From a virus, in the IMG/VR virus record IMGVR_UViG_3300030331_004162, positions 1 to 57,663 of that record: a DNA stretch of 57,663 nt. One strand, given 5' to 3'. Under the pieces are notes generated by a model. That model saw only the letters and a program-made list of their open reading frames with translations, ran no database searches and was not told the DNA's origin. Shown one piece after another: positions 1 to 57,663 of the stretch; position 1 is the stretch's first letter, and the number at the start of each line of letters is the position of its first letter. Position numbers and translations under genes: made by a program.

Positions 1-222
1 GGCGAAAAGTTCAACGCGAAGCCGCGCATCCGATTGTCCACGATTCACGGCACAAAGGGCGGCGAAGCAGAGAACGTGGTGATCCTGCCTGACCTGACTG
101 CCGCGGCCATGGAGGAAGGCGGCGATGATCTACACCGCGTTTTCTATGTGGGGGTCACCCGCACATTGAAAAACCTCTACATCCTTGAACCGGACGACTA
201 TCTAAGGGCCTATGCGTTATGA
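1..222 (+). CDS. UvrD/Rep-like SF1 helicase, C-terminal fragment
   Basis: The reading frame is open from base 1, so this is the end of a gene that begins outside the window. Superfamily 1A motif V is visible as STIHGTKG followed by NVVIL, and motif VI as RVFYVGVTRTLKNLYIL, with the conserved TR arginine that contacts ATP. The matching N-terminal half of such a helicase ends the window at 57663, in the same codon phase. Known family members are 3'-5' DNA helicases that unwind duplex ahead of replication or repair. The stop overlaps a possible ATG at 219. A separate second helicase is possible but less likely. Confidence 0.85.
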   Translation, partial: GEKFNAKPRIRLSTIHGTKGGEAENVVILPDLTAAAMEEGGDDLHRVFYVGVTRTLKNLYILEPDDYLRAYAL

Positions 223-236: not shown

Positions 237-377
237 ATGAGTCACACCCCGTGTCCCAAGTGCAAGAACAAAGCTGAAGAGATCATTCTTGCCTCAGAGA
301 ATAAGCGTGTGGGTTGGTGGTGCAGAGCCTGCGGCCACTTTGAAAAAGCCATCCTAAGAGAGAGGAAAGTGGCATGA
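237..377 (+). CDS. Small zinc-ribbon protein
   Basis: This 46-residue protein carries CPKC near its start and CRAC 21 residues later, a four-cysteine zinc-ribbon arrangement. AAGGAA lies 8 bases before the chosen ATG. An in-frame ATG at 219 that overlaps the helicase stop would add six residues. The end overlaps the polymerase start (ATGA), so the two are likely translated together between helicase and polymerase. A nucleic-acid-binding role is an inference; the fold call rests only on cysteine spacing. Confidence 0.75.
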   Translation: MSHTPCPKCKNKAEEIILASENKRVGWWCRACGHFEKAILRERKVA

Positions 378-2275
378 CAAAACTACAGATGGCGATGTTC
401 CCGCCCAAATCCGATTGGGTGCCCCCCGTAGAGCTACCGGATATCTTTGACGCTGACGAAATAGCCATAGACGTTGAAACACGCGACCCGAACCTCAAGC
501 AGAAGGGGCCGGGCTGGCCAACGAAGGACGGCGAGGTGGTGGGCTATGCAATAGCGGTAGGCGGCTGGAAATGCTACATCCCAGTGGGCCATGCAGGCGG
601 CGGCAACCTAGACAAGCGTATTGTCAGCAAATGGCTCAAAAAGGTCTTTGAGTGCCCTGCCGACAAGATCATGCACAACGCCCAGTACGATCTCGGCTGG
701 CTACGTGCAGAGGGCTTCGAGGTCAAAGGCCGCGTGATCGATACCATGATCACCGCCAGCTTGATTGACGAAAACCGCTTCAGCTACAGCCTGAATGCAC
801 TGTGTTACGACTACCTCGGCAAGACGAAGTCTGAGAAGACACTGGTAGAGGCCGCAAAGGAGTTTGGCGTGGACCCCAAGGGCGAGATGTGGAAGCTTCC
901 CGCCATGTATGTAGGGCCTTATGCAGAGACAGACGCAGAGATTACGCTGGAGCTATGGAATCACTTCAAAACCCTGCTGAACCGTGAAGACCTGTGGGAC
1001 GTGTGGAATTTAGAGATTCGCCTGCTCCCGCATCTTGTCGAAATGACCAAGCGCGGCATACGGGTAGACTTGGACCGCGCTGAACGAACCAAGCAAGTCC
1101 TGATTAAGCAAGAGAAAGAAGCTCTCAAACAAATCAAGGCGCTGGCAGGCACGGATGTAGAAATCTGGGCGGCACAATCTATCGCCAAAGCTTTTGACAA
1201 ACTGAGTATTCCGTACCCCAGCACAGAAAAAGGGTCACCCAGCTTTACCAAATCGTTCCTGTCGGAACATAACCACGACCTCGCCAAGTGGATCGTCAAA
1301 GCCCGCAACCTCAACAAGACTAGCGGCTCGTTTATCGATGGCATTCTGAAATACGTACATGACGGCAGGATTCATAGCCACATCAACCAGCTACGGTCAG
1401 ACGACGGAGGAACCGTCTCAGGCCGCATCTCCATGAACTCGCCCAACCTGCAACAGATACCGGCCCGCGATCCAGAGCTAGGCCCCATGATCCGCTCGCT
1501 ATTCTTACCAGAAGAAGGCCAGCAGTGGGCGGCTATCGACTTCTCGCAACAGGAACCACGGATCTTGGTGCACTTTGCCAAGAACTACGGCGATTACAAA
1601 GGTATGCCGCTGGAGGGCGTCGAGGCTTTTGTGGATGCGTACCGAAACGATCCCAACATGGACTTTCACACCATGGTCAGCGAGATGGCCCGCATCCCCC
1701 GTAAGCAAGCCAAGGTCATCAACCTCGGCATGATGTATGGGATGGGTGTCAATAAATTGTCAGATCAACTGGATGTCAGTGTGGACGAAGCCAAAGCCCT
1801 GACCCAGCAATATCACAAGCGCGTTCCCTTCGTAAAAGGACTCATGAAAGGCGTACAGAAGAAACTGGAGGACCCGCGGTCATCCGGTAGTGTGCGGTCC
1901 CTGCGCGGCAGAAAGTGCCGCTTTGACCTTTGGGAGCCTGACGCGTTTGAGATGCACAAAGCCCTGCCTCGCGAAGAAGCGATCGCGGCTCACGGACCAA
2001 CGACCAGACTACGGCGGGCCTACACCTACAAAGCCTTGAACCGTCTGATCCAAGCGTCTGCCGCGGACATGACCAAGCAGGCCATGGTGGACGTGTGTGA
2101 AGCAGGGCACGTGCCAATGCTACAGGTGCATGACGAACTGGCCTTCTCAGTTGAGAGCAAAGACCACGCTCGAGAGCTTTCAGAAATCATGCAAAACGCC
2201 GTGCCGCTACAAGTTCCCAACAAATGTGACGTGGACTACGGGCCAAGTTGGGGTGAGGGTGAAGAGCTTGATTAA
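374..2275 (+). CDS. polA: DNA polymerase I, family A, with 3'-5' exonuclease
   Basis: This 633-residue replicative polymerase is a typical phage PolA length with no 5'-exonuclease domain. The DnaQ-like proofreading domain shows Exo I IDVET (D33, E35), Exo II HNAQYDLGW and Exo III YAETDAEI. Polymerase motif A is IDFSQQEPR (D389), motif B is RKQAKVINLGMMYG (R443, K447, Y455) and motif C is HDE at 586-588. Residue 451, equivalent to Phe762 of E. coli Pol I and Tyr526 of T7, is leucine, a variant common in marine phages. It starts in an ATGA overlap with the zinc-ribbon gene. Its last codons overlap a promoter-like sequence for the next gene. Confidence 0.97.
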   Translation: MTKLQMAMFPPKSDWVPPVELPDIFDADEIAIDVETRDPNLKQKGPGWPTKDGEVVGYAIAVGGWKCYIPVGHAGGGNLDKRIVSKWLKKVFECPADKIMHNAQYDLGWLRAEGFEVKGRVIDTMITASLIDENRFSYSLNALCYDYLGKTKSEKTLVEAAKEFGVDPKGEMWKLPAMYVGPYAETDAEITLELWNHFKTLLNREDLWDVWNLEIRLLPHLVEMTKRGIRVDLDRAERTKQVLIKQEKEALKQIKALAGTDVEIWAAQSIAKAFDKLSIPYPSTEKGSPSFTKSFLSEHNHDLAKWIVKARNLNKTSGSFIDGILKYVHDGRIHSHINQLRSDDGGTVSGRISMNSPNLQQIPARDPELGPMIRSLFLPEEGQQWAAIDFSQQEPRILVHFAKNYGDYKGMPLEGVEAFVDAYRNDPNMDFHTMVSEMARIPRKQAKVINLGMMYGMGVNKLSDQLDVSVDEAKALTQQYHKRVPFVKGLMKGVQKKLEDPRSSGSVRSLRGRKCRFDLWEPDAFEMHKALPREEAIAAHGPTTRLRRAYTYKALNRLIQASAADMTKQAMVDVCEAGHVPMLQVHDELAFSVESKDHARELSEIMQNAVPLQVPNKCDVDYGPSWGEGEELD

Positions 2276-12075: not shown

Positions 12076-12082
12076 AACCAAG

Positions 12083-12106: not shown

Positions 12107-12116
12107 ATCCGCCATA

Positions 12117-12162: not shown

Positions 12163-12169
12163 TAGAACC

Positions 12170-12307: not shown

Positions 12308-12528
12308 TGCGGTGCGAAAACAAAGTAGCGCAGACTTATTACCCCGCCCTTGATCCCTTCCCCCGCACCATTGAATTGCCGTGCGGGTCTACATCAATAC
12401 ATGGGGGCACACTGGTCTGCGAAGACTGCCAGAGTAAGCACTATGCCGGTTGGCCGGACCGATGCCCGCACGGGGTGCCGGTTCAACCGTGGGATGGCTA
12501 CTGCCCCGCTTGTGAGTTTGGGGAGTAG
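12304..12528 (+). CDS. Small cysteine-rich, probably zinc-binding protein
   Basis: A 74-residue protein with Cys/His pairs spread along it: RCENKV near the start, LPCGS, LVCEDCQSKH, DRCPHGVP and GYCPACEFG. The last two look like zinc knuckles. The ATGA overlap with the upstream basic protein suggests coupled expression. A DNA- or protein-binding adaptor role is an inference. Confidence 0.7.
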   Translation: MMRCENKVAQTYYPALDPFPRTIELPCGSTSIHGGTLVCEDCQSKHYAGWPDRCPHGVPVQPWDGYCPACEFGE

Positions 12529-12543
12529 CAACCCCCGCCGACT

Positions 12544-12570
12544 AACCCCGCCTCGAGCGGGGTTTTTTTT
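12544..12570 (+). terminator. Intrinsic terminator
   Basis: AACCCCGC-CTCGA-GCGGGGTT (12544-12564) is an 8-bp stem followed by a run of T. The loop is part of a CTCGAG site. Confidence 0.9.
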
Positions 12571-12580
12571 GACCGCGGGG

Positions 12581-12627
12581 TATGCGACACTAGCCGTGCC
12601 GTAATGTTGCGGCGAATCTTTGGAGAA
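12581..12627 (+). promoter_or_regulatory. Promoter-hairpin-SD cassette E
   Basis: TATGCGACACT (12581-12591), 6 bases, hairpin GCCGTAA-TG-TTGCGGC (12598-12613), then CTTTGGAGAATAGAACC and the ATG at 12635. Confidence 0.65.
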
Positions 12628-12634
12628 TAGAACC

Positions 12635-13018
12635 ATGTCAATACGTGTTGATTTGAGCCAAGACCAAGAGGTCGAAGTTACTGCGACTTTTGAAGTGTGC
12701 GACGAAGTCCCTGATTATGTTAGGGCGGACAATGCAGAAGATATCTTGGAGTTAATGAACGATAGCAATATCAATATGGCCGAAGTTATCGAGGCCGCCG
12801 TGTTAAATGGGGTTGATATGCCCGAGGCACATTCCGTTACTTTTGACAATGTGATGGCCTTTCTGGACGGCCGCGGTCCCGAGGGTGATCAATACATCAA
12901 AATTATCGGTAGCGCGTTAGTCGGTCTGCGCTTGGATCTCGAGAACACGGAGCGAGCGAATATTCAGTTGCGCGAGACTATCGATAGAATGTCCGCGGCT
13001 GATCAGAAAACCGCCTGA
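12635..13018 (+). CDS. Acidic accessory protein, unknown function
   Basis: A 127-residue strongly acidic protein beginning MSIRVDLSQDQEVEVTATFE. A beta-rich N-terminal part is followed by helices (AEVIEAAVLNGVDMPE) and a C-terminal coiled-coil-like segment (LVGLRLDLENTERANIQLRE). It forms a single-gene transcription unit between cassette E and the terminator at 13038. The high acidity would allow DNA mimicry, as in some anti-restriction proteins, but there is no direct evidence for that. Confidence 0.7.
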   Translation: MSIRVDLSQDQEVEVTATFEVCDEVPDYVRADNAEDILELMNDSNINMAEVIEAAVLNGVDMPEAHSVTFDNVMAFLDGRGPEGDQYIKIIGSALVGLRLDLENTERANIQLRETIDRMSAADQKTA

Positions 13019-13037
13019 GCAATTCCGGCTATCTTTT

Positions 13038-13063
13038 ACCCCGCCTCGAGCGGGGTTTTTTTT
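13038..13063 (+). terminator. Intrinsic terminator
   Basis: ACCCCGC-CTCGA-GCGGGGT (13038-13056) is a 7-bp stem followed by a run of T. Confidence 0.9.
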
Positions 13064-13074
13064 GTCTGGCTTTT

Positions 13075-13120
13075 ATCGCATACTGCGCTTGCCGCAATGT
13101 CGCGGTAAACATTTTGGAGA
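13075..13120 (+). promoter_or_regulatory. Promoter-hairpin-SD cassette F
   Basis: CATACT (13079-13084), 6 bases, hairpin GCCGC-AATGTC-GCGGT (13091-13106) with one G-U closing pair, then TTTTGGAGA before the ATG at 13129. Confidence 0.6.
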
Positions 13121-13128
13121 CAGACACT

Positions 13129-13374
13129 ATGTCGAATAACTTTCAAAACGAGCTAGAGCATGTTGGCGTTGCCAAGACCCGCGTCTGGGAACTGGCCACC
13201 GCCGCCGATCGAATCCACACTGCAGTCTGCGCGCTGGATATCCAGAACCGAAAGGTACTGGCAAAGCATTACCCCGCCTTCCTGCAAGTCGCGGAAGAAT
13301 TCGCGAAATTCGATGACACTCTGCTGGCGGAAATGGGCGTAAAGTTTAAGCGCGCTAAGGGCGGCAAATCATGA
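13129..13374 (+). CDS. Small helical protein, unknown function
   Basis: An 81-residue protein beginning MSNNFQNELEHVGVAKTRVW. It looks almost entirely helical and has a basic C-terminus (FKRAKGGKS). It lies behind cassette F with a TTTTGGAGA site, and ends in an ATGA overlap with the next gene. No family recognised. Confidence 0.7.
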   Translation: MSNNFQNELEHVGVAKTRVWELATAADRIHTAVCALDIQNRKVLAKHYPAFLQVAEEFAKFDDTLLAEMGVKFKRAKGGKS

Positions 13375-13613
13375 TCCGGATCGCACCGATTGATCAGATA
13401 CACGGCGACATGATTGTGTGGGTCTGCGTTAAACGTCTGGGCGACTTTAAACCGATTGATGGCGGGGAGTACGTGGTTCAGAAAACGCGCAAGGCACAGC
13501 CGCTGATATACCGAGCGGTTAACCGTAGGCTGAAGCCCACGGGGGACACGCTGGCGCGGTGGGGGTTCTTTGATGGCCCCGAAGATGTGATCCGCATACC
13601 CGCCCGCCGCTGA
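13371..13613 (+). CDS. Small basic protein, unknown function
   Basis: An 80-residue basic, probably beta-rich protein beginning MIRIAPIDQIHGDMIVWVCV. It is coupled to the preceding gene (ATGA) and followed by the last terminator of the island. No family recognised. Confidence 0.65.
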   Translation: MIRIAPIDQIHGDMIVWVCVKRLGDFKPIDGGEYVVQKTRKAQPLIYRAVNRRLKPTGDTLARWGFFDGPEDVIRIPARR

Positions 13614-13633
13614 CCAGTAGCGGCCACCACTGG

Positions 13634-13661
13634 ACCCCGCCCTCGAGGCGGGGTTTTTTTT
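13634..13661 (+). terminator. Intrinsic terminator, end of accessory island
   Basis: CCCCGCC-CTCGA-GGCGGGG (13635-13653) is a 7-bp stem followed by eight T. The TCTCCGACACT shortly after (13669-13679) resembles the cassette E box, but no gene follows. Confidence 0.9.
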
Positions 13662-14096
13662 GCCTGCCGTCTCCGACACTTTTTGCTTCCAGACCGGGCG
13701 ACCGTTCGGCAGCAAAACCTGGCGTCTCATACCCCCGCGAGCCTAGTGTTTACGCCATTCTGTTTCGCCGTTTTTGCACTAATCGCGAAAACGCATTCTC
13801 GAAACCACTTCAACTTGCACACGTAACAACTGGCGCGGGGTCCGCGCCCCGAGCACCGCCCGAAACGTACCGCGCCCCCTGCCGCCGGTCCCATGGGCCG
13901 CGGCCCGCGGGCCGTTGCCGTTGTCATGACGCCCCGCGCCCCGTGGGCCGCGGTCCGCGGGACCCAGTCCCCGATCGCGTCAGCGGGCCGTGGGCCGCGA
14001 TTTTTGGCGAATTTTCCGCGAAACGCGCCCGCGCCTAAGCAAGCGGCAACTAATGCCATGTTTCTCACGAACAACAGAACAGAAAAACGATATCGA

Positions 14097-14112
14097 TGTT
14101 CCACGTGGAACA
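14097..14112. promoter_or_regulatory. parS-like 16-bp palindrome, copy 1
   Basis: TGTTCCACGTGGAACA is a perfect inverted repeat. It equals the parS sequence bound by ParB in Pseudomonas as I know it. It lies in non-coding DNA upstream of terL, and six T follow after one base. Exact copies occur at 22335 and 25278. Confidence 0.7.
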
Positions 14113-14238
14113 ATTTTTTCGGAAAAAACCCGTAAGCCCCGAGCCGAGGTCCCTGAAACGTGTTACGGTTCAAAAAAAACGCGTACAGGAGTCCCAGAGC
14201 TTCAAAAATTTTGCAAAAAATTGAGAGCTACCGGATCG

Positions 14239-14254
14239 CATATATGTTTATAAT
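14239..14254 (+). promoter_or_regulatory. Possible promoter for the packaging/head operon
   Basis: TATAAT at 14249-14254 is a perfect -10 box with TG a few bases upstream. No good -35 is visible at standard spacing. It lies 37 bases before the terL start. Confidence 0.45.
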
Positions 14255-14291
14255 TGAAGTGAGTACTTACTAACCCCGAGAGCTAGTGTTT

Positions 14292-15770
14292 ATGCGGAGT
14301 AATGGTTCTAGTTTTGAGTCTTTAGAGGAAGCGGAAGAGAAGATTCTGAAGCTCGAATACCGGCTGGCGCAGATTGAGCAGGTTGAGTCGTGTCAGAGAG
14401 ACTATTTGAGCTTTGTCCGGACGATGTGGCCCGAGTTTATTGCGGGTCGGCACCACAAGATCATGGCCGAGAAGCTTGAGCGAGTGGCCAGTGGGGAGTT
14501 GAAGCGGTTGATCATCAACATGCCGCCGCGTCACACGAAGTCTGAGTTTGCGAGTTTCCTGTTTCCGGCTTGGATGATTGGTAAAAACCCTGCAATGAAG
14601 ATTATTCAGGCTACGCACACCACGGAACTTGCGGTCAACTTTGGCCGGAAGATCAAGAATCTGCTGGAGAGAGATGATTATCTGGAGATTTTCCCTGATG
14701 CGGCGCTTTCTGCTGACTCGAAGGCGTCCGGTAGGTGGGACACGGCCCGTGGTGGTATGTATTACGGCGTAGGTGTGGGGTCAAACTTGGCGGGACGTGG
14801 TGGTGATTTGATCATTATTGACGATCCGCACTCTGAGCAGACGGCGATGTCGCTGAGTGGCTTTGATGATGCATGGGATTGGTACACAGGTGGTCCTCGA
14901 CAGCGTTTGCAACCGGGCGGGGCCATCATTGTGGTGATGACGAGGTGGTCAGAGAAGGATTTGACGGGTCAATTGATCCGGGCACAGGGTCGCGATGAGT
15001 TAGCGGACACTTGGGAAGTCATTGAGTTCCCGATGGAGATGCCTTCTGGGCAACCTTTGTGGCCGGAGTTCTGGTCATTTGAGGAAATGCAGGCGGTAAA
15101 GGGATCAATTCCCTTGCCCAAGTGGAATGCCCAGTACCAGCAGAACCCTACTGGTGATGAAAACGCGATTATCAAGCGCGAGTGGTGGAATGTGTGGGAT
15201 AAACAGCAGATTCCGCAGTTGCAATACGTGATTCAGAGCTATGACACGGCTTTTTCCAAGAATACGCGGGCGGATTACAGTGCGATTACGACTTGGGGCG
15301 TGTTTTATCCTGAAGAAGGCACGGTTGCGGGGCTAATTTTGCTGGATGCAAAGAAAGGGCGCTGGGATTTCCCTGAATTGAAGCAAGTTGCGATGGAATC
15401 CTACAAATTTTGGGAGCCTGAGACGGTAATTATTGAGGCAAAGGCGAGTGGTATGCCTTTGACCCACGAACTACGGAACATGGGCATCCCTGTGGTAAAC
15501 TTTACGCCGAGTCGCGGTAACGATAAGGTATCGCGAGTACACAGTGTTTCTCCGCTTTTTGAAAGCGGGATGATTTGGGCACCGGATGAGTCTTGGGCGC
15601 ACGATGTGATAGAAGAGTGTGCGGCGTTCCCTAATGGGGAGTATGATGACTTGGTAGACAGCACCACGCAGGCGTTGATGCGATACCGACAGGGTAACTT
15701 TGTTCAGTTGCCATCAGATTATTGGGAAGATGAGAGTGCGAATCTTCGGCCAATGCAATATTACGGGTAG
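14292..15770 (+). CDS. terL: Terminase large subunit
   Basis: This 492-residue protein is the packaging motor ATPase and nuclease. The Walker A-like NMPPRHTKS (residues 78-84), Walker B LIIIDDPHS (D177, D178) and MTRWSEKDLTG form the N-terminal ATPase. The RNase H-fold nuclease begins at SYDTAFS (D318), continues with VIIEAKASG and ends near DDLVDSTTQAL. This layout fits the TIGR01630-type phage terminases. ATG 14292 is preferred to GTG 14286 because GAGAG then lies 9 bases away. It heads the late operon. Confidence 0.95.
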   Translation: MRSNGSSFESLEEAEEKILKLEYRLAQIEQVESCQRDYLSFVRTMWPEFIAGRHHKIMAEKLERVASGELKRLIINMPPRHTKSEFASFLFPAWMIGKNPAMKIIQATHTTELAVNFGRKIKNLLERDDYLEIFPDAALSADSKASGRWDTARGGMYYGVGVGSNLAGRGGDLIIIDDPHSEQTAMSLSGFDDAWDWYTGGPRQRLQPGGAIIVVMTRWSEKDLTGQLIRAQGRDELADTWEVIEFPMEMPSGQPLWPEFWSFEEMQAVKGSIPLPKWNAQYQQNPTGDENAIIKREWWNVWDKQQIPQLQYVIQSYDTAFSKNTRADYSAITTWGVFYPEEGTVAGLILLDAKKGRWDFPELKQVAMESYKFWEPETVIIEAKASGMPLTHELRNMGIPVVNFTPSRGNDKVSRVHSVSPLFESGMIWAPDESWAHDVIEECAAFPNGEYDDLVDSTTQALMRYRQGNFVQLPSDYWEDESANLRPMQYYG

Positions 15771-23679: not shown

Positions 23680-24330
23680 ATGGCAAATCAAGAAACTGCC
23701 TTTGGTCTTCGTCCTGTAGGTCTGGTAGGAAGCGGTGTTAACAGCACCGGAGTTACTCAGTATGAAATTGCTAGTAACAACACTAATGCTATTTTTAACG
23801 GAAGCATCTGTGTTCCCACTGCCGCAGGCGTTATAGACCAAGCTGGAGCTACAAGTGGCGGCACTACGCAAGCCCTTGGCGTTCTGGTAGGGGTTGAATA
23901 TCAAGACGCCACACAAAAGAAACCTGTGTTTCTTAATTACTGGCCCGGATCAGGAAGCGTATCGGTAGATACCAATTTTCCTGTAAAGGCTCTTGTGGCT
24001 GATAACCCTGATCAACTGTTCGTCGTTGCGGCGGATGCATCTCTCACTGACCGAGCTACTGCATTAACGGCTGTTTTTGCTAACGCAAGTCTGGGAACTT
24101 CTGCCCGTACCGGTTCTACCGATACAGGCAAGTCAAATTCTCAGCTTTCTGTAAGCAGTATTGCTGTTACTGCTACGCTACCTTTGCGTATCGTAGGTTT
24201 GGTTGATGATGAAGCTAATCAAGATTACGCTTCAGTAGGGGCACATCTGCTTGTTCGATTGAACGCTCATTTCAACGCTGGCACACGTGGTTTTGCTTCA
24301 CAAACCACTGCCGACTCAACCGGCATTTAA
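23680..24330 (+). CDS. Head decoration-type structural protein
   Basis: A 216-residue Ala/Thr/Ser-rich, beta-rich protein beginning MANQETAFGLRPVGLVGSGV, the usual style of phage structural proteins next to the capsid gene. It contains QALGVLVGVEYQDATQKKPVF and ends HFNAGTRGFASQTTADSTG. ATGGAGAACTAAGTT precedes the start. A decoration or capsid-stabilising role is inferred from position and composition. Confidence 0.75.
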   Translation: MANQETAFGLRPVGLVGSGVNSTGVTQYEIASNNTNAIFNGSICVPTAAGVIDQAGATSGGTTQALGVLVGVEYQDATQKKPVFLNYWPGSGSVSVDTNFPVKALVADNPDQLFVVAADASLTDRATALTAVFANASLGTSARTGSTDTGKSNSQLSVSSIAVTATLPLRIVGLVDDEANQDYASVGAHLLVRLNAHFNAGTRGFASQTTADSTGI

Positions 24331-37810: not shown

Positions 37811-38011
37811 GTGGAAACAATCGTCCTGTATTTGGTGTTGGAAACCTACACTTATACATGGGCGATAGGCAGTAGAACACGGCTAGAACATTACCGGATT
37901 TGTCGATACAAGGAGCTAAATAGCACATCGGATCAAACGTACACTTGGTACTTGCCGTATTTCAGTTCGTATTGTGATCCCTATGTAGTATACGAGGTTC
38001 CAAATGATTGA
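37811..38011 (+). CDS. Small aromatic-rich protein, unknown function
   Basis: A 66-residue protein from a GTG start, rich in Tyr and Thr (LYLVLETYTYTWAIGSRTRL, YLPYFSSYCDPYVVYEVPND). The GTG sits 3 bases after the previous stop and the end overlaps the next gene by 8 bases. The frame from ATG 37809 stops after 18 codons. The tight fit between neighbours supports it, but the ribosome site is unclear. Confidence 0.55.
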   Translation: METIVLYLVLETYTYTWAIGSRTRLEHYRICRYKELNSTSDQTYTWYLPYFSSYCDPYVVYEVPND

Positions 38012-38480
38012 CCCCATTACAGCGGCGGCGGCGGCGACCAAGGCGTATGCGGGGGTCAAAGCCTTTATTGAGGCGGGCAAAAGTATAGAAGATACCTTTT
38101 CCGTGGTGGCGCGTTGGCAAGCAAGCGCCTCAGACATTTTGTACGCTAGTCAGCGCCAGAAAAAACGCACAAATCCTCTAAAACAAGTGGTTTTTGCTCA
38201 GTCAGTTGAAGCAGAGGCCGCGCAGATGTTTGCCGCAAAGAAACGCATAGAAAACCAACGCAAAGAAATAGTTACGCTGTTGCAGTATGCATACGGCAAT
38301 GAGGGGCTTGAAGAGTACAGAAGATGTATGAGAGAGGTGCAGGAGCAAAGGCAAAGGGAAGTTTATGCCCAGCAGGAAGCCAAGGACGCAATGGTTAAAT
38401 CGTTCTGGATTGTTGTGTTAGTGGGGATAGCAGGCGGCATCATAGCCTTTATTTTTGAGGCGGTGTCAAGTAAGGGGTAG
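38004..38480 (+). CDS. Membrane-anchored helical phage protein
   Basis: A 158-residue protein beginning MIDPITAAAAATKAYAGVKA, with long charged helices (FAAKKRIENQRKEIVTLLQY, REVQEQRQREVYAQQEAKDA) and one C-terminal transmembrane segment (SFWIVVLVGIAGGIIAFIF). Similar proteins with an AAATKAYAGVKAxIEAGKxIEDT start occur in marine phages as I recall, function unknown. TATACT at 38481, just after the stop, may be a promoter for the next gene. Confidence 0.75.
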   Translation: MIDPITAAAAATKAYAGVKAFIEAGKSIEDTFSVVARWQASASDILYASQRQKKRTNPLKQVVFAQSVEAEAAQMFAAKKRIENQRKEIVTLLQYAYGNEGLEEYRRCMREVQEQRQREVYAQQEAKDAMVKSFWIVVLVGIAGGIIAFIFEAVSSKG

Positions 38481-50700: not shown

Positions 50701-52405
50701 CGTGTTGCAACAATTTAAAGGGGTTTATGACAACCCCGGTAAAAGAATCAAAACAATTTTAGGGGTGCCCGGAAATCGCCCAGATAACCCCGTTAGAAAT
50801 TTTACTCAGTTGCTTGATGAAATTAGATCGGTTACGACAAGTGACAGGGGTCCCGAGTTTAGAAATCAAGTAAATAAAGCTTTAGTTTACTCTGTATTAG
50901 ATTCTGCATTTATTTACGCGGGAGGAAGGAACCCTGCGGACAAAATCAATTTTCTTAAATTCAGAGAGTTTTTGTTTGAGCCTATTGACGGCCAAGAAGG
51001 TAGCGGCGTCCCCTCCGTTGCAGATTTACTAGAAGAAAAGAACTTTATTACAAAAAAATCGTTTGAAGACTATCAGACGTTGATTAATCAATCTGCGGAC
51101 ATTGAGCAGGTGATGAGAAACTACGGCCCACAATCTATTGAAAAGTTGGTTGATAAAGGCGCTTTAGTATCTAACATATTGATTCGAGCTTTTGGCTCTA
51201 TAATTGGTAATGTGGGGCTTAACCGGCTCAAGGGTATTACCGGTAATATACCGGGAGCTTCAATGTCTGTGGCACAAACCACCTCAAACGCTACAGCGGA
51301 GCTTGGTTTGAACGCGCCACAGGCGAAAATACAGGACATTTTTACCGAAGCCTTGTTGGACCCGGAAGTAACTCAAGCTTTATTAGCGAGAGTGCCTAAA
51401 GACGAAAAAAAGGCACTTCAGTATTTTAGATCTCTTCCTGCAATTTTTTATACATCCGGTATACGTGGCGAGGTAGACGCTCTTCCGTCAGATAGTGGTG
51501 ATATAACAATCCCGCTTGGTGGAGCAGATAGTGATACTCTTGTAGAGCAAGAAACTGTTTCGCCTGCACCGGAACCTGCACCGGAACCCGCACCACAGCC
51601 TGCACCACAAGCGGAACCTAACTTAGTATCTGAGTTAGCGGCGGCACAAATGGAGGCAATGCGTCCTACTGCACAGCCTGCGCCAGACCCGGTCATGGCC
51701 CGTGTTGCACAGCGCCCAACTAATCTGTCTTCACCTGAACCTCGCGGCACCCCGTTAGACACTCGGCGCGAATTTGAAGCGATGGAAGGACAGCTTGCTG
51801 GTGCGGGAAGAGTTCCTGCCCAGCAACTAGGTGCCCTGACCATAGATCAACAGTTGGATGCACCGTTGTCAATCAAGAACAACAACCCCGGCAATCTACG
51901 AATGGCGGGACAGCCCGGAGCAGAAGAGGGCTTAGAGGGCTTTGCATCTTTTTCTACCCCCGGTCAGGGTCTGAATGCTTTGACCCGTCAGATTGTCCTC
52001 GATACGCAAACGCGAGGTCTGACCTTGGGTGAGTTCATAACCAAGTATGCACCTCCGTCAGAAAATGACACAGAAGGTTACATCCGGTTCATGGAGCAAA
52101 GGACGGGTGTACCCAGAAACAGGAAAGTGCCCGAATTTTTAGTTCGCGACATAGCCCGTGCGATCGTGGAATTTGAGGGCGGTAAGTTAGCCCTACGTTA
52201 TTTCTTTGGTGATGAGATGCGGGCCGAAAGAGAAGAAGTTACACCACCTCCTGTCGCACAAGCGCCCACACCACCGCCTACACCACCGCCAGTGGCGGCA
52301 AGAGCAACACCGCAGTCTATTCAGCGGGCCGCAAGAGTGTTAGGTCCTCAAGACGATATTGGGATGCTTGCCTCTGAAATGATGATGCGGGATAGACCGG
52401 CTTAA
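47759..52405 (+). CDS. Ejection-type virion protein 4 with NPGNLR hydrolase-like domain
   Basis: At 1548 residues it is the largest gene. Hydrophobic, Gly-rich segments near residues 118-165 (GLGFAKGAVMGFAKTPGPIP, VGGGLGALGLSTLSYVP) could contact membrane, and long helical stretches follow. A Pro/Ala/Glu linker (about residues 1265-1285) leads to a domain at 1372-1480 with NNNPGNLR, FATF-like ASFSTPGQGLNALTRQIV and KYAPPSENDTEGYI. That pattern occurs in virion-associated peptidoglycan hydrolases. It likely opens the cell wall during ejection. Its stop overlaps the SNF2 gene stop through TTAA. Confidence 0.8.
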   Translation: MSENQQSLDVLSNQVLGGESAPKMLRFDIGAALEDQVPLGEINKELARLKGFDYGPAFSEIREARLKEITDAGVAKENVSPESLDLFANEVLLEQLSDGAYAREANPRKRGAAQAMFVDVPVGLGFAKGAVMGFAKTPGPIPARIVGGGLGALGLSTLSYVPGEIILRGDPTGLTDYEGLYPSEPLPSQRAEVEAARTYTGGLLSLLTLGGVVKQGVVDFGSDFIARNIENMAPGYKRSFSKLAEKVVRGTEGLVQAIGRPLGRPETVGQQAGAVVKAGFASVAPAIGAYQAEKIDPYDPLTRFGFEVGASAIPTTRIATFVGDKTVGAFLRTLKNVFSREGREDSASRQIVASLEALDAKYADVEFDRETFLADLQEALNDSPIEKLVDKVNRELPESRQQLIVPPLTVAQRTAGVKKDIATGAGTTKEINPLIGLEALDRGLRKTNQGAGEFGELSDQLYEDFKLFAGRLMDELLRQAQGNPEALAEAAQIQEAIFSAGITHRLEAAKEAAITRSQNVQTPLRRKTQSELLVTYVDQALEDVNSATNMLYDRAKERLAGQDIQPTFTLEAIRQLQDDGVTSLPPVVSEILKEISPDASNLEANLNRLRSIEDDAFKTLEGLRREARSYLNTLPPRVEDGLQPLLARIEGLPAQEQITILRDELGEVTAVTQTRDIKGQAAYIRKLISAATAQGEFDAIGLRVADARARLTGQEATELSLSQLLDYRRRLGKANRITVNQNLAAESYHMSVVEEGIVRDLEALSGGSSLVGEGPEAYQSFEALLQSLEEQNLEGVQAGLILLRKANAFNRAKHDVFTRTFVGDLRQKDAKGGMRIEPKLALQHVFRGSSDEVSIKIDQIEDAINFINSPIFADVRRNLTQEELEQLSQSATRRLGTYQAGKNDMLLAFFRKAIDRDPASPTYNMVNPTKAQTFINDNEEALGELFPEVFEDIKDAIQGRLEFKDLLAEQERLAKSLNEQFVLQQFKGVYDNPGKRIKTILGVPGNRPDNPVRNFTQLLDEIRSVTTSDRGPEFRNQVNKALVYSVLDSAFIYAGGRNPADKINFLKFREFLFEPIDGQEGSGVPSVADLLEEKNFITKKSFEDYQTLINQSADIEQVMRNYGPQSIEKLVDKGALVSNILIRAFGSIIGNVGLNRLKGITGNIPGASMSVAQTTSNATAELGLNAPQAKIQDIFTEALLDPEVTQALLARVPKDEKKALQYFRSLPAIFYTSGIRGEVDALPSDSGDITIPLGGADSDTLVEQETVSPAPEPAPEPAPQPAPQAEPNLVSELAAAQMEAMRPTAQPAPDPVMARVAQRPTNLSSPEPRGTPLDTRREFEAMEGQLAGAGRVPAQQLGALTIDQQLDAPLSIKNNNPGNLRMAGQPGAEEGLEGFASFSTPGQGLNALTRQIVLDTQTRGLTLGEFITKYAPPSENDTEGYIRFMEQRTGVPRNRKVPEFLVRDIARAIVEFEGGKLALRYFFGDEMRAEREEVTPPPVAQAPTPPPTPPPVAARATPQSIQRAARVLGPQDDIGMLASEMMMRDRPA

Positions 52406-53853
52406 ATCAGCCAATCCTTGGCGCTTTCGCCCAGTACATCACCAGCGATATTGATCTTGTCCCGTAACGCCGACAGGATCTTTTCGTCTATTGTCCCCGG
52501 ACTGACCAGATCAACATAGGTCACGGTGTCCTTTTGGCCGATACGGTGGGCGCGGTCCTCGGACTGCAACCGAATCTCCAGATCGTAGCTGTTGCTGAAG
52601 TAGATGACGGTGTTGGCTTCTGTTAGCGTAATGCCATAGCCACCAGTGCGGGGCTGACCAACAAAGAACCGTAGCTCTGAATCAGGGTCTTGGAAGCGTT
52701 CGATGGTATCTTGCCGGTCTTCCTGCGCCGTCTCTCCAAAATAACTGGCCACGGACCCCGGACCGTACTTTTTAGCCAACGCCTCTTCGATGGCGTGGAT
52801 GTCATAAGTCCAAGTCGCCCAGATAATTGCCTTGCCCTGCACCTCTTCAACTACATCAAGAAGTTCCGGTAACCTATTGTTTTTTATGGGTTGTAGAGGT
52901 CCTTCGTCTGGTTGCAGGTGACCACAACAGATTTGCTGTAACCGCATGATCTGTGTCAGGACAGAGGCTGTGGTAGCCAACTCGCCTTTCTCCAGCCGTG
53001 CCAGCGCCAAATCCTGCATCTGCTTGTACACCACCACCTGCTCTTTGCTTAGATTGACCTCGCGCCGCAGGTATACCTTGTCCGGTAGATCAAGGCACTC
53101 TTCTTTTAGCACCCTGCTACTAAACCGGTCCAGCTTCTCGCCAAGCTCATCTAAGCGACGATATCCGACAATCTCGTTAAAACTATGCGGCCCCATGTTC
53201 CTGCGCTGAACTACCGCATACCGGCCCTGAAAGCCATAGAAGCTGTTGAAGCCCAACGCCTCTTGCTCCAGAAACGCACACTGGCTAAACAAATCCATGG
53301 GGCTTTTAGTGATGGGCGAGCCTGTCAGAATGCGTCGATACTTGGACGCCTGACCTATCTTGATCAGGTTCTTTGTCCGCTGGGCACCCTTATTCTTGAT
53401 CGTCGTGCTTTCATCCAGAATGGTGATGCAGTTGGGGTTAAGCTTTACAAACCGCTCCGCCGCTGTTGCACCTTTAGCGGTACTGAACGCTTCTGTGTTC
53501 ATCACCAAAATGTGCAGGAACCCCGGCTCACGCTTCTCTGGGTCAGCTATCTCGCGTATTGCCTCACGAAACTTCTTGGTGAAGTTGGGTTGCCACTTGA
53601 CGATTTTTGTCTGGATACGCTCGGGCAAATGCGCGGGTATTTCTTTCTTCACCCAGTTATCAAAGACACCTTTGGGCGCAATGACTAAAGCTGTGTTAAT
53701 CTCCTTCGCCTCATACAGCGCGCCCATCGTGTCAATGGCGACCTTGGACTTTCCTGTACCCATCTCCATGAAAAGCCCAAAGTAAGGCCGTTGCCACGAA
53801 TCATTAAAAACTTGTTGTTGATGTTCGTAAGGTTGTGTCGCGAAAGTGTACAT
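52402..53853 (-). CDS. SNF2-family helicase
   Basis: A 483-residue superfamily 2 helicase-like ATPase and the only minus-strand gene. Walker A is MEMGTGKS (32-36), the DExx motif is ILDESTTIKN (147-150), and motif III is LTGSPI. The C-terminal RecA domain has IIWATW, FVGQPRTGGYGITLTEANTV and QSEDRAHRIGQ with the arginine finger. SNF2 proteins translocate on double-stranded DNA; phage versions may clear proteins or aid recombination. The gene ends tail-to-tail with the 1548-residue gene and starts divergently from the 53945 operon. Confidence 0.92.
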   Translation of the reverse strand: MYTFATQPYEHQQQVFNDSWQRPYFGLFMEMGTGKSKVAIDTMGALYEAKEINTALVIAPKGVFDNWVKKEIPAHLPERIQTKIVKWQPNFTKKFREAIREIADPEKREPGFLHILVMNTEAFSTAKGATAAERFVKLNPNCITILDESTTIKNKGAQRTKNLIKIGQASKYRRILTGSPITKSPMDLFSQCAFLEQEALGFNSFYGFQGRYAVVQRRNMGPHSFNEIVGYRRLDELGEKLDRFSSRVLKEECLDLPDKVYLRREVNLSKEQVVVYKQMQDLALARLEKGELATTASVLTQIMRLQQICCGHLQPDEGPLQPIKNNRLPELLDVVEEVQGKAIIWATWTYDIHAIEEALAKKYGPGSVASYFGETAQEDRQDTIERFQDPDSELRFFVGQPRTGGYGITLTEANTVIYFSNSYDLEIRLQSEDRAHRIGQKDTVTYVDLVSPGTIDEKILSALRDKINIAGDVLGESAKDWLI

Positions 53854-53869
53854 ATAGGCCCTCTACGTG

Positions 53870-53937
53870 TTGACTGCAATAATATGCGATGGTACGCTGG
53901 CTGTCCAGCCCTCAAAAAAGGGCCTAACCACGAAAGG
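53870..53937 (+). promoter_or_regulatory. Promoter-hairpin leader for the replication operon
   Basis: TTGACT (53870-53875) and TATGCGATGGT (53883-53893) precede two hairpins, GCTGG-CTGT-CCAGC (53896-53909) and a GCCC/GGGC stem (53908-53924), then AAAGGAGA. The box matches the accessory cassettes, but the box-to-stem gap is 2 bases rather than 6. The 91-base divergent gap also serves the SNF2 gene. Confidence 0.55.
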
Positions 53938-53944
53938 AGATGCA

Positions 53945-54520
53945 ATGAGCGAGATGCTCTTAGATATGGAAGCCGACCAAGCCACGGCTTCCGCCATCGA
54001 GAAGATGGATAACACTGGCTTGAGTAGTGTAGCCGAGATCGCACGGGCAATCCGTAATCAAGAAGATCTGGTGGCGCAACTTGATGACAAGCTGAAAGAG
54101 GCCAAACGTGACCTCCTGAAGCTGACCGACGAGGACCTACCAGCCATGCTGGCGGAACTCGGCCTCAATGCCATCGAACTCGATGATGGTTCCAAAGTGA
54201 CCGTACAGGCGACCTACGGTGCCCACATTAAAGTGGCCGACCGTGAAAACGCCTTCCAATGGCTCCGAGATAACGATTACGGGGACATCATAAAGAATAC
54301 AGTCAGTTGTAACTTTGCCCGCGGCGAAGACCAACAGGCCGTGGACTTCATGGAAGCGGCACAGCGAATGGGTTACATCCCAGAGCAAAAAACCGAGGTC
54401 CACGCGCAAACGCTGAAAGCGTGGGTCAAAGAGCGGGTGGAAAATGGGGACTCTTTCCCCATGGACCTTTTCGGCGCGTACACAGGCCAGCGGGCCAAGA
54501 TTGCAAGGAGCAAATCATGA
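53945..54520 (+). CDS. SSB-associated conserved phage protein
   Basis: A 191-residue protein. An N-terminal helical pair (VAEIARAIRNQEDLVAQLDD, KLKEAKRDLLKLTDEDLPAM) is followed by IELDDGSKVTVQATYGAHIK and WLRDNDYGDIIKNTVSCNFA. It ends VHAQTLKAWVKERVENG. This protein regularly precedes SSB-like genes in marine podoviruses as I recall; its function is not established. AAAGGAGATGCA sets the ATG at 53945. It lies at the head of the SSB-primase-helicase operon. Confidence 0.75.
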   Translation: MSEMLLDMEADQATASAIEKMDNTGLSSVAEIARAIRNQEDLVAQLDDKLKEAKRDLLKLTDEDLPAMLAELGLNAIELDDGSKVTVQATYGAHIKVADRENAFQWLRDNDYGDIIKNTVSCNFARGEDQQAVDFMEAAQRMGYIPEQKTEVHAQTLKAWVKERVENGDSFPMDLFGAYTGQRAKIARSKS

Positions 54521-55299
54521 GTGCATCAAAAGCAGTAAAGAAGAAGGAAGAGGCTAATGAAATCGTACCGTTTAGCCCGGACATCTTTGAACAGGACGCC
54601 AATCTCGGCCTTGAAAACTTGGGCCAAGACGATCTGGCGTTACCTTTCCTCAAGCTTCTTAGCCGTCAGGACCCGGTGCTGGATGATCTGGACGACGCGA
54701 AAGCAGGCGATATCCTCAATACCGTATCGAATACGGTCTATTCGGGTAAAACAGGTATTCGTGTCATACCAAGTGCTTATCAGCGGCGCTTTATTGAGTG
54801 GGCTCCTCGGGGCACTGGTAGTGGCGCTCCTGTAAATATTTACACGCCGGAGGACACTCTGCCCAAAGTCGAGCGGGACCCCAACGACAATAAAGACTAT
54901 GTCGTGGGTGGGAATGGCACGTATCTGGAGGAAACACACCAGCACTTCGTAGTCATTCTTGAAGAGGACGGCACGACCTCGACTGCCTTGATACCGATGA
55001 AGTCTACGCAGTTGAAGAAAAGCCGAAGGTGGAACTCCACAATTGCCCAGCGCACTTTGGTGGGCAAGAACGGCCCGTTCACACCACCCCGTTTCAGCCA
55101 CATTTATCTGCTCAAGACTGTCTCTGAAGAGAACAGCAAGGGTAGCTGGCATGGCTGGGACATCAGCTTGGAAGGTGTCGTCGAAAACGGCGCACACTAC
55201 AAGCAAGCCAAAGAGTTTTCCGAATCCATTCTGCGCGGTGAGGTTGAAGTCAAACACACCGACGATGGCGCGGGTGCAGGAGAAGACGCACCCTTCTAA
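54517..55299 (+). CDS. Single-stranded DNA-binding protein, phage type
   Basis: A 260-residue protein. It has LPFLKLLSRQDPVLDD, a beta-rich core (SGKTGIRVIPSAYQRRFIEW, QHFVVILEEDGTTSTALIPM, STQLKKSRRWNS) and an acidic C-terminal tail closing in phenylalanine (DDGAGAGEDAPF). That tail is typical of SSBs, where it recruits replication partners. The AAGGAG site sets the ATG at 54517. The position before primase and helicase fits. The OB fold itself is inferred. Confidence 0.8.
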   Translation: MSASKAVKKKEEANEIVPFSPDIFEQDANLGLENLGQDDLALPFLKLLSRQDPVLDDLDDAKAGDILNTVSNTVYSGKTGIRVIPSAYQRRFIEWAPRGTGSGAPVNIYTPEDTLPKVERDPNDNKDYVVGGNGTYLEETHQHFVVILEEDGTTSTALIPMKSTQLKKSRRWNSTIAQRTLVGKNGPFTPPRFSHIYLLKTVSEENSKGSWHGWDISLEGVVENGAHYKQAKEFSESILRGEVEVKHTDDGAGAGEDAPF

Positions 55300-55306
55300 G
55301 GAAAAC

Positions 55307-55329
55307 GGGGGCTTCGGCCCCCTTAACTT
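55307..55329 (+). terminator. Hairpin after ssb, possible weak terminator
   Basis: GGGGGC-TTCG-GCCCCC (55307-55322) is a very stable hairpin, but the following TTAACTTT is a poor T-run. It may attenuate between SSB and primase or protect the ssb message end. Confidence 0.45.
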
Positions 55330-55342
55330 TGGCGAATAAAAA

Positions 55343-56881
55343 ATGTCTGATGCAGATCGTTTCTCGGTCATATTTGATGGCCTCAAACAAGCCTATGGCA
55401 CGTTTGAAATCGACAGAACAAGCTCTAATGGCAAATCACAAGGTAAAGCGCGAGTCATTCGCGAACCACGCACCACGGAGCATTTCCAGCAACATTTGGC
55501 TGGAGAAGGGGCAGGGATCGGGATCATCCCGATCAACGAGGACGACAAGTGCATTTGGGGTTGCATCGATATAGATGAATACCCGTTGGACCATGCAAAG
55601 TTGGTGGAGCGGATTCGCCACACTCAGATCCCTCTGGTAGTCTGTCGGTCCAAAAGCGGAGGCGCACACTGCTTCATCTTCTGCACCGATTGGGTGACCG
55701 CCAAGATCATGCAGTCCACACTTCAGCATCTAGCTAGTGGGCTGGGCTACGGCGGTAGCGAGATATTTCCGAAGCAAATCAAACTTTTTCTCGACCGAGG
55801 CGATATCGGTAACTTCCTCAATATGCCGTATTTCAATGCGGAAGAGGGGCTACGTTACGCTTTTAACGATGATGGGTCCGCCGCGACATTGCAGGAGTTC
55901 TTTGGTTTACATGCCGCGCACGTCCAGACCCCAGAGCAACTACAAGCACTCACGCAGGCTACCGTCGAAGGAACAGCGATTGTGGACGGCCCGCCCTGTC
56001 TCCAGACCTTATGTTCTCAGAAAATCAGTGAAGGGGGCCGCAACAACGGACTCTTCAGCATAGGGGTGTACTTGCGAAAAGCTTACCCCGACACGTGGCA
56101 GGACGAAATTCTCCACCACAACATGAGCTACATTGACCCGCCGTTGCCTCTAAATGAGGTAAACATTGTCGTAAAACAATTAGAGCGCAAAGATTACGCT
56201 TATCGTTGCACTGAGCCGCCCATCCAGCCCTATTGCAACCGTGAGCTATGCCAGACCCGCAAGTTTGGCATTGGAGCCGCTATCAGCGACATGGCCGTAG
56301 CAAACCTACGCAAATACAACTCCATCCCGCCCGTATGGTTCCTAGACGTGAACGGTGTACCGCTGGAACTGGACACTGACGCGCTCCAGAACCAGACCGT
56401 CTTCCAGAAAGCCTGTATCGAACAGCTTAACTTCATGCCCCAGACGATGCCCCGCCGCGGGTGGGAGGGCCGCATTAACCAGCTTATGAAGGAAATGGCT
56501 GAAACAGACGGGGCCATCATGGAGGTGAGCGAAGACGCCAGCATTAATGGACAGTTTTACGAGTTCTTGGACGAGTTCTGCACTTCTACACAAAAAGCCG
56601 AAGACAAAGAAGAAATTTTGCTCCGCCGCCCATGGGTGGACGAAGAGGGCGAGGCCGTCCATTTCAGACTCAAGGACTTTGAAGGCTTCCTGCGTAAAAA
56701 CCGCTTCAGTGAGTTTAAGACCCATAAAGTGGCCCAGCGCCTGCGGGATATCAATGGCGAGGCTGTGCAGTTAAAAATTAAGGGCAAAGCCATACGTGTG
56801 TGGCGCGTACCTTTACCGGAGACTCCTACCGGAGGACCAGAGTCCAAAAGCTTTGAACCACGGACCCCGGACCCGTTCTAA
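55343..56881 (+). CDS. AEP (TOTE-type) primase
   Basis: A 512-residue archaeo-eukaryotic-type primase. The catalytic core shows CIDIDEY (D76, D78), the SKSGGAH motif (S103-H109) and GSEIFPKQ. C289, C298 and C303 in YRCTEPPIQPYCNRELC form a zinc-binding segment typical of the PriCT/PriL-like region. The C-terminal half (FYEFLDEFCTSTQKAEDKEE, RLRDINGEAVQLKIKGKAIR) resembles winged-helix extensions of phage primases. TOTE-conflict-type primases share this order. It should make primers for PolA. One base overlaps the helicase start. Confidence 0.85.
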   Translation: MSDADRFSVIFDGLKQAYGTFEIDRTSSNGKSQGKARVIREPRTTEHFQQHLAGEGAGIGIIPINEDDKCIWGCIDIDEYPLDHAKLVERIRHTQIPLVVCRSKSGGAHCFIFCTDWVTAKIMQSTLQHLASGLGYGGSEIFPKQIKLFLDRGDIGNFLNMPYFNAEEGLRYAFNDDGSAATLQEFFGLHAAHVQTPEQLQALTQATVEGTAIVDGPPCLQTLCSQKISEGGRNNGLFSIGVYLRKAYPDTWQDEILHHNMSYIDPPLPLNEVNIVVKQLERKDYAYRCTEPPIQPYCNRELCQTRKFGIGAAISDMAVANLRKYNSIPPVWFLDVNGVPLELDTDALQNQTVFQKACIEQLNFMPQTMPRRGWEGRINQLMKEMAETDGAIMEVSEDASINGQFYEFLDEFCTSTQKAEDKEEILLRRPWVDEEGEAVHFRLKDFEGFLRKNRFSEFKTHKVAQRLRDINGEAVQLKIKGKAIRVWRVPLPETPTGGPESKSFEPRTPDPF

Positions 56882-57663
56882 TGTTCCGGATATTCGGGCC
56901 GCCCGGCACCGGCAAGACCACTACGTTGCTGAACATGGTGGAACAAACCCTCGACAAAGGTATCCCGCCCTCACAGGTGGGCTTCTTTGCGTTTACCCGT
57001 AAAGCGGCGACAGAGGCTAAAGAACGTGCCGCCAAGCGGTTTGAACTGGACCCTGACAAGGACCTGCCGTATTTTCGCACCATCCACTCTCTCGCATATC
57101 GGCTGATGGGCGTCAAAGAAACTGAGTTGATGGGTTTGCAGAATTACAAAGAGTTGTCCCAAGCCATAGGTTTTAACCTAAGTAGCTCGGCCAGCGATGA
57201 CGAGGATGTGTCGTTTAAGGCTACAGATCACCCCATCTTGCAACTCATCAACCTGTCAAAGACCAAGAAAACCGCGCTGGAGCATGAGTACAACCACTCC
57301 AACGTCAACTTCACGTGGATGGAAGTGAAGTATGTAGCGGACTCTTACGCCAACTACAAAAGCACCTTTGGCCTGATGGACTTTACAGACTTGATTATGC
57401 GTTTTGCCAAGGAAGCTGACCATCTGATGCCCCCGCTGAAGATATGCTTTCTGGATGAAGCGCAAGACCTGTCGCCCTTGCAGTGGGACATTGCTCATAA
57501 GCTGGATGAAAAGTCTGAGCGGATGTACGTGGCAGGCGATGACGATCAGGCTATTTATCGCTGGGCTGGCGCGGACGTTGACCATTTCATCAACTTGTCC
57601 GGTGATGCCGAAGTTTTAGAGCAAAGTTACCGCGTTCCCGAAGTAATTCACGTTTTAGCAGAG
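56881..57663 (+). CDS. UvrD/Rep-like SF1 helicase, N-terminal fragment
   Basis: The first 261 codons are intact and the gene runs off the window end. Walker A is GPPGTGKT (6-13), motif Ia is FTRKAATEAKERA, the DExx box is FLDEAQDLSPLQW, motif III is AGDDDQAIYRWAGAD and motif IV is LEQSYRVP. The 3' half should resemble the fragment at 1-222, which holds motifs V and VI. A direct join would give 334 residues, shorter than UvrD-like phage helicases, so sequence is probably missing between the two. Confidence 0.92.
   Translation, partial: MFRIFGPPGTGKTTTLLNMVEQTLDKGIPPSQVGFFAFTRKAATEAKERAAKRFELDPDKDLPYFRTIHSLAYRLMGVKETELMGLQNYKELSQAIGFNLSSSASDDEDVSFKATDHPILQLINLSKTKKTALEHEYNHSNVNFTWMEVKYVADSYANYKSTFGLMDFTDLIMRFAKEADHLMPPLKICFLDEAQDLSPLQWDIAHKLDEKSERMYVAGDDDQAIYRWAGADVDHFINLSGDAEVLEQSYRVPEVIHVLAE

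Follow-up and report, generated by a model that had tools for sequence, protein, structure and literature searches.

Gene content of the putative replication module

The DNA analysed here, termed the window in the following, is the IMG/VR virus record IMGVR_UViG_3300030331_004162 with a length of 57,663 bases. It carries a gene set that we interpret as the putative replication module of a tailed phage, in which a UvrD-type helicase may take the place of a ring helicase. In the last 5 kb, the gene for a SNF2-type superfamily 2 ATPase on the minus strand (52402..53853; PF00176, E 1.4e-21; PF00271, E 8.9e-13; phrog_62, E 1e-113) is followed on the plus strand by the genes for a gp33-like protein of the DUF7307 family (53867..54520; PF23984, E 2.1e-32; phrog_2378, E 1.4e-45), a gp34-like protein that is a probable single-stranded DNA-binding protein (SSB; 54517..55299; PF23977, Pam3 gp34-like, E 1.4e-59), a 512-residue TOTE/CAPP-like archaeo-eukaryotic primase (AEP; 55343..56881; PF22548, E 4.3e-12; phrog_21866, E 5e-101) and the first 261 codons of a UvrD-type helicase of superfamily 1A (SF1A) with motifs I to IV (56881..57663; PF00580, E 1.3e-34; phrog_1967, E 8.5e-57). 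The latter gene is cut by the window end. Its last 73 codons with motifs V and VI are found on the plus strand at positions 1..222 (PF13538, E 5.3e-9; phrog_1967, E 4.1e-15), followed on the same strand by the gene for a family A DNA polymerase (PolA) with a 3'-5' exonuclease domain (374..2275; PF00476, E 1.3e-63; PF01612, E 3.1e-15). For the gp33-like protein, the ATG at 53945 is likely to be the start codon. An earlier inspection of the letters alone, referred to here as the sequence-only reading, had named an AEP primase, a UvrD-like helicase, a SNF2-type helicase and PolA, and all four are present with firm profile matches.

Because the UvrD gene begins at one end of the window and finishes at the other, where it is followed by PolA, the two ends adjoin in the genome. 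A terminal repeat was not found at the window ends. In the related loci L001-L003, the counterparts of the two ends are separated by exactly 498 bp, which lie entirely within UvrD, and in L001 the gene is a single uninterrupted open reading frame (ORF) of 500 codons, encoding 500 amino acids. Another locus, identical to the window's end in 2321/2321 bases, contains 441 bp of the missing stretch. The sequence-only reading had pointed to this segment as a place where a DnaB-type domain might turn up. With 498 bp, all of them inside UvrD, it is too small to hide a ring helicase gene, and this location is thus ruled out. Note that the primase stop codon (56879-56881) and the UvrD ATG (56881-56883) share one base, which suggests translational coupling of primase and helicase.

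Primase, helicase and polymerase

As judged by its catalytic motifs and its predicted fold, the window primase is an AEP, and de novo primer synthesis is predicted for it. Residues D76, D78, S105, H109 and E140, residing in the stretches DxD, SKSGGxH and EIFPK, are invariant in 25/25 aligned rows, and we take them to be the catalytic DxD, SxH and third acidic motifs of the primase. The PF22548 match reaches 46.6 bits compared with a cut-off of 27, and the profile match to the CRISPR-associated primase-polymerase CAPP has an E value of 2e-14. A structural model built on alignment A3 (mean pLDDT 81.6, pTM 0.47) comprises the AEP domain (residues 1-208), a PriCT-1-like helical part and a winged-helix-like end (residues 400-493); given the pTM of 0.47, more trust can be placed in the individual domains than in how they are arranged. 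In this predicted model, residues 1-208 superimpose on CAPP (7nqf_B) with a Z score of 19.2 and a root mean square deviation (rmsd) of 2.9 over 190 aligned residues.

The zinc segment that had been proposed for the primase is also present. It corresponds to C289, C298 and C303 and is joined by a fourth cysteine, C219; all four are invariant together in 25/25 rows of alignment A2 and 31/31 rows of A3. They bracket the PriCT-1-like part, for which the PriCT-1 profile stays below its cut-off in the window, exceeds it in Bhz9 and MW202510, and finds no match in the DSL-LC04 segment. PriCT domains have been proposed to be related to the Fe-S domain of PriL (PMC5862659; for this and all further papers cited, statements refer to the accessible parts of the text), from which the idea of a PriL-like four-cysteine site arises. 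Their spacing is 70-9-5 compared with 81-17-40 in yeast PriL (Cys 336, 417, 434 and 474), and the fold comparison barely covers residues 210-320. Homology of the four-cysteine part to PriL is an idea only: its profile (A5) matched no PriL chain among the PDB sequences, where the sole row was a fucosyltransferase with an E value of 0.17.

The closest solved structures for the helicase are PcrA, UvrD and Rep. Its residues G11, K12, D192, E193, Q195, D220, Q223, R251, R473 and R481 are kept in 109/109 aligned copies, and by alignment the enzyme is equipped with SF1 motifs I to VI; 3'-5' translocation is predicted by homology. About 190 residues separate motifs IV and V, compared with roughly 280 in PcrA, the latter value deriving in part from a non-significant alignment segment, so that the 2B part is probably reduced.

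In the motif B alignment, PolA of the window has leucine at position 762 (RKQAKVINLGMMYG). The same residue occurs in 20 of the 23 PolA sequences, the window included, and phenylalanine in those of three Nanhaiviruses. Groups of Leu762 PolA have been described as accompanied by non-ring helicases, with Group II going together with SNF2 and UvrD, and PolA-SNF2-UvrD ranked second in abundance among the combinations in a virioplankton sample (Nasko et al. 2018, PMC6302109). This Leu762 set is thus already in print, and the gene set of the window belongs there by its Leu762 and its neighbours: Leu762, the SNF2 and UvrD neighbours and the lack of a ring helicase are common to both. The published Group II set has no ribonucleotide reductase; one was not found among the 41 window ORFs scanned. 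The accounts differ in that the main text of that study never uses the term AEP, the primase passages concern DnaG, and the accessible parts neither name a primase for Group II nor mention gp33 and gp34. Strand displacement was reported for two of five primer-extending Leu762 PolAs (Keown et al. 2022), which raises the possibility that the polymerase opens the duplex by itself in the manner of phi29, with UvrD assisting only. However, the assayed Leu762 enzymes are not established as members of the AEP-UvrD set, and a dedicated primase together with a strictly linked, motif-intact helicase would be less needed in such a scheme, which we regard as unlikely.

The gp34-like protein

The name of the PF23977 family (Pam3 gp34-like) carries no function. 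A model of the window protein (pLDDT 82.1) has an OB-like core, for which Foldseek returned no match at E<=0.001. The best VIA-align row was the phiC31 recombination directionality factor (Z 7.9, rmsd 4.3, 151 aligned residues), and OB folds were represented by BRCA2 (Z 5.9), bacterial SSBs (up to 4.5) and SSB/RPA chains (Z 3-4.5). All of these scores are low enough for chance to be possible, and those for SSB/RPA stay below the level that indicates kinship. The tail of the protein is acidic. Among 148 complete copies, the last residue is F, Y or W in 141, and 116 end with 'PF'; in the window the tail reads EDAPF. Bacterial SSBs possess an acidic C-terminal tip of like kind, which binds host proteins. 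Where the sequence-only reading had simply listed an SSB, the gene, the OB-like model and the acidic, aromatic-ended tail are in place, and the identity as an SSB is likely rather than proven.

A side observation concerns the gp33-gp34 pair in the related loci L003, L005 and L006. There, gp33 and gp34 share 57-59% and 45-46% identity, respectively, with their window counterparts, compared with 91% for the flanking SNF2 and 92-96% for AEP, and the pair may have been swapped or may be diversifying as a unit.

Search for a ring helicase

Twenty-five records were searched in six frames with DnaB_C (PF03796) and phrog_19. Besides the window, they comprised five related IMG/VR records and 19 out of 25 named phage records that gave an AEP hit; DMU1, 53, pB23, vB_AbaSI_2, 2AB-P and NC_041921 (identical in name and length to KY606587) were left out. 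Neither profile matched the window, which bears out the earlier statement that a DnaB/gp4-type ring helicase is not to be seen there, and none of the 24 module-bearing records yielded a DnaB match (0/24). Among the 18 named phages in this group, 16 records are described as complete, one is a genome assembly and one (PSA28) is partial. The only match came from MW202803 (phrog_19, E 1e-13; DnaB_C, E 3.5e-7, below its cut-off), a record that has an AEP domain match only (tblastn, residues 25-187) and is devoid of UvrD, SNF2, gp34 and PolA. Both profiles matched 14/14 control genomes, with DnaB_C above its cut-off in 11. In addition, phrog_19 had no match in another 43 IMG/VR contigs (0/43), a set that includes many fragments, and even at E<=10 it was found in none of three genomes, those of the window, the relative G003 and DSL-LC04. 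A scan for the Walker A pattern [AG]x4GK[ST], which misses some P-loop types, returned three window ORFs of at least 60 residues: UvrD and two further ones in 23680-24330 and 38004-38480 that we judge to be probable chance matches.

These negatives bear on the idea that a ring helicase is present but too diverged for profiles, or was lost from the assembly. The individual ORF scans comprise 41 window ORFs, several of them without any family, and this leaves some room for such a protein. On the other hand, the six-frame searches gave no match in the window, in five relatives or in 18 named module-bearing phages, the relaxed threshold and the Walker A scan added no credible candidate, and the assembly gap is confined to the 498 bp within UvrD, so that a hidden ring helicase appears extremely improbable.

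One further candidate was a protein of 144 residues encoded at 8023-8457, which matches phrog_2165 ('DNA helicase', E 1.4e-11) and lacks [AG]x4GK[ST]. Since such a Walker A motif is missing and nucleases account for the remaining matches (phrog_93 endonuclease, E 5e-6; Hjc, E 0.005, below cut-off), the protein was not counted as a helicase. This nuclease-like gene overlaps the small terminase gene.

Linkage of the gene set across viruses

In the six-frame searches, UvrD (phrog_1967), gp34 (PF23977) and SNF2 (phrog_62) were each detected in 24/25 records with an AEP hit, and PolA (PF00476) in 23/25. The two exceptions for PolA are MW202803 and G005, the latter a 42-kb fragment whose sequence stops inside UvrD. 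A total of 115 IMG/VR loci were fetched with the primase; loci L159-L162 lie outside the linkage counts. UvrD comes after AEP in 109/109 loci with at least 1 kb of downstream sequence; it is directly next in 106, and in the other three the UvrD ORF starts before the end of AEP. Where 4.5 kb of downstream sequence is available, PolA is present (65/65 loci); gp34 and gp33 are present in 72/72 loci with 1.8 kb upstream, and SNF2 in 39/39 with 4.5 kb upstream. As the loci are related, these counts are not independent. An IMG/VR scan for AEP kin gave at least 600 stretches, at least 599 of which encode such proteins, and the AEP-UvrD set is widespread, recurring in many viruses from water. Among named phages, AEP identity to the window goes down to 24%. 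Cultured phages with the set have Dinoroseobacter, Pelagibacter, Pseudanabaena, Acinetobacter, Klebsiella, Salmonella and Providencia as hosts, which we take to represent Alphaproteobacteria, Gammaproteobacteria and a cyanobacterium.

The pelagiphages of the HTVC023P type and DSL-LC04 carry the same genes for gp33, gp34, AEP, UvrD, PolA and SNF2. DSL-LC04 shows the gene order of the window, plus one small gene between AEP and UvrD. Its AEP is 47.8% identical to that of the window, compared with 27.8% for HTVC023P. According to the paper on the HTVC023P type (PMC9599517), helicases and DNA polymerase are part of the core genome and the primase was used for phylogeny; a comment on the missing ring helicase was not found in its accessible parts.

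The trio SNF2-gp33-gp34 also occurs outside the set, namely in PB1, M6, JSF39, BcepF1, MyoSmar and Carpasina (6/6), six of the roughly 500 phage records in which gp34 kin occur. The AEP and DnaB profiles each matched 0/6 of these phages, PolA had no profile match within the stretches covered, and a weak SF1 helicase match was present in 6/6. Because the trio exists in phages lacking AEP, its occurrence does not depend on the AEP-UvrD-PolA part. The lack of a ring helicase may extend to further phages with gp34, although six records are too few to judge this. The trio also speaks to the proposal that the SNF2-type protein is the motor of the fork. Its conservation, in the same 24/25 records and 39/39 loci, is as strict as that of UvrD. 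However, its occurrence together with gp33 and gp34 in six phages without AEP indicates that it is not bound to this replisome, and SNF2 proteins usually move along duplex DNA without separating the strands. A role of SNF2 as the fork motor is therefore very unlikely.

Stand-alone and long AEPs in bacterial genome records

The AEP alignment was also used to scan bacterial genome records, which yielded 62 loci, mostly contigs of metagenome-assembled genomes. Four loci with AEP fragments and one without an AEP profile match lie outside the following contrast. The 44 stand-alone AEPs have 499-609 residues, except for two that are truncated at contig ends and one 769-residue ORF, and UvrD was found beside 34 of the 41 that are followed by at least 1 kb. 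In contrast, UvrD, SNF2, gp34 or PolA are near none of the 13 long AEPs (720-1087 residues). Nine of the long AEPs were scanned, and six carry a helicase-type domain above the Pfam cut-off in the C-terminal extension: DUF5906 in four, two of which also have Pox_D5 or VapE above the cut-off, and AAA_25 in two. The remaining three showed a sub-threshold match to Herpes_ori_bp, a sub-threshold match to DUF927 and AEP only, respectively. We presume DUF5906, D5 and VapE to be SF3-like and AAA_25 to be a RepA-like helicase domain. This helicase-type assignment is partly taken from PMC5862659.

Trees of the AEP domain were calculated from 201 columns, a quick version with 69 rows and a careful one with 65, from which four long branches including the record with DnaB had been removed. 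The quick tree implies six changes between UvrD and fused-or-DnaB. In the careful tree, the fused state changes seven times, with at least four changes forced by supported branches. This pattern fits functional replacement of a separate UvrD by the extension of a long AEP, without proving it.

UvrD as the putative fork helicase

We assign a probability of about 0.6 to the interpretation that this gene cluster serves replication in a tailed phage, that a ring helicase plays no part at the fork of this phage and that UvrD is its fork helicase. UvrD, an SF1A enzyme with 3'-5' polarity by homology, would unwind the fork, probably moving along the leading-strand template in front of the Leu762 PolA. 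Priming of the displaced strand would fall to the stand-alone AEP, perhaps in contact with the helicase, and copying to PolA, while the gp34-like protein would coat and protect single strands. SNF2 and gp33 would be conserved helpers at an unspecified step. Three lines of evidence favour UvrD in this role: its strict linkage to the stand-alone AEP in phages, the lack of DnaB in the module-bearing phage records searched, and the absence of UvrD near long AEPs with a C-terminal extension of their own. The conservation of the UvrD motif residues in 109/109 copies also counts in its favour.

Several points weigh against this assignment. UvrD-type helicases have low processivity (PMC6302109), and the literature search revealed neither an assay nor genetics for the gene set. 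As the main counter-evidence within the set, the Nanhaiviruses Pan1, R26L and R5C have a second UvrD-profile match outside the module that is stronger (E 6e-124 to 4e-133) than the module copy (1e-86 to 2e-103), besides weaker ones, which makes their fork helicase ambiguous; JeffCo and Barton have one UvrD-profile match each. In the bacterial genome records, 7/41 stand-alone AEPs have no UvrD in view. In three of these loci (L200, L203 and L204), SNF2 lies downstream and the available sequence ends early; the other four (L196, L201, L215 and L216), from Mesorhizobium, Rhizobiaceae and Neorhizobium (Rhizobiales), have no module gene in view besides the stand-alone AEP. Finally, only four independent supported pairs in the tree differ in the fused state, with UvrD being opposite in zero to two of them. 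The contrast between fused and separate helicases is therefore a pattern and not a test, as the independent pairs are too few for significance in a sign test.

The sequence-only reading had left a choice between UvrD as the replicative helicase and recruitment of a host helicase. The comparative evidence favours the first option short of proof, and the second still has to be reckoned with. Recruitment of host DnaB is common among phages, and UvrD could then serve in repair, recombination or fork restart. With its conserved presence and unassigned role, gp33 would be a candidate loader, and the gp34 tail resembles the SSB tip that binds host proteins. Against recruitment, Pfam or PHROGs scans of 41 window ORFs gave no helicase-loader or DnaB-like family, and recruitment leaves unexplained why UvrD follows AEP in every one of the 109 IMG/VR loci and accompanies none of the 13 long AEPs. 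We consider host recruitment unlikely.

Assignment of UvrD to the fork also has a precedent. In pTN2-like plasmids of Thermococcus, a UvrD/Rep-type SF1 helicase is encoded directly downstream of an AEP primase-polymerase, as in the window, and is thought likely to unwind the plasmid during replication (PMC3543421). This AEP-then-UvrD arrangement supports UvrD as the fork helicase. The plasmids differ in that they are archaeal, their AEP belongs to the PolpTN2-like family (PMC5862659), and PolA, SNF2 and gp34 are not mentioned in the accessible parts of the article (PMC3543421). The UL5/UL52/UL8 complex of herpes simplex virus likewise combines an AEP primase carrying a putative Cys/His zinc motif with an SF1 helicase partner (PMC8187027). 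UL5 is an SF1B enzyme with 5'-3' polarity (PMC8187027), whereas the phage enzyme matches the SF1A proteins PcrA, UvrD and Rep. CAPP (PDB 7nqd-7nqf) is alike in the fold of its AEP domain and differs in being tied to CRISPR-Cas adaptation rather than to phage replication (PMC8211822).

A more far-reaching and tentative view, which may well prove wrong, is that a large group of bacterial viruses has an archaeo-eukaryotic replication layout. It would consist of a 3'-5' single-motor helicase on the leading-strand template, a one-chain PriS-plus-PriL-like primase made up of AEP, PriCT-1 and the four-cysteine site, perhaps an Fe-S site, an OB-fold SSB and Leu762 PolA. The helicase would be interchangeable with the primase-fused helicase domains of other mobile elements, and the polarity at the fork would be opposite to that of DnaB-DnaG.

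As far as the accessible parts of the literature go, no paper was recognised as describing the pairing of AEP and UvrD in phages. AEP as the constant primase of the set and the alternation of a separate UvrD with a long AEP were not found in the literature; together with the absence of a DnaB match in 24/24 module-bearing records searched in six frames, they add to what is in print. The set makes it testable whether a non-ring SF1A helicase can drive the fork of a phage of 40-80 kb.

Further features of the window

A search for repeats in 2280-7430, 12000-14300 and 53840-54000 revealed no iteron array; apart from some inverted repeats, these stretches contain only direct repeats in two copies. 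A GC-rich inverted repeat with 28-nt arms that are 82% complementary resides at 13887-13964, upstream of the large terminase gene. Positions 11081-11839 encode a protein of the Gene product 88 family (PF17338, E 1.4e-30), and a gene for a staphylococcal-nuclease-like endonuclease (2305-2733) lies directly after PolA.

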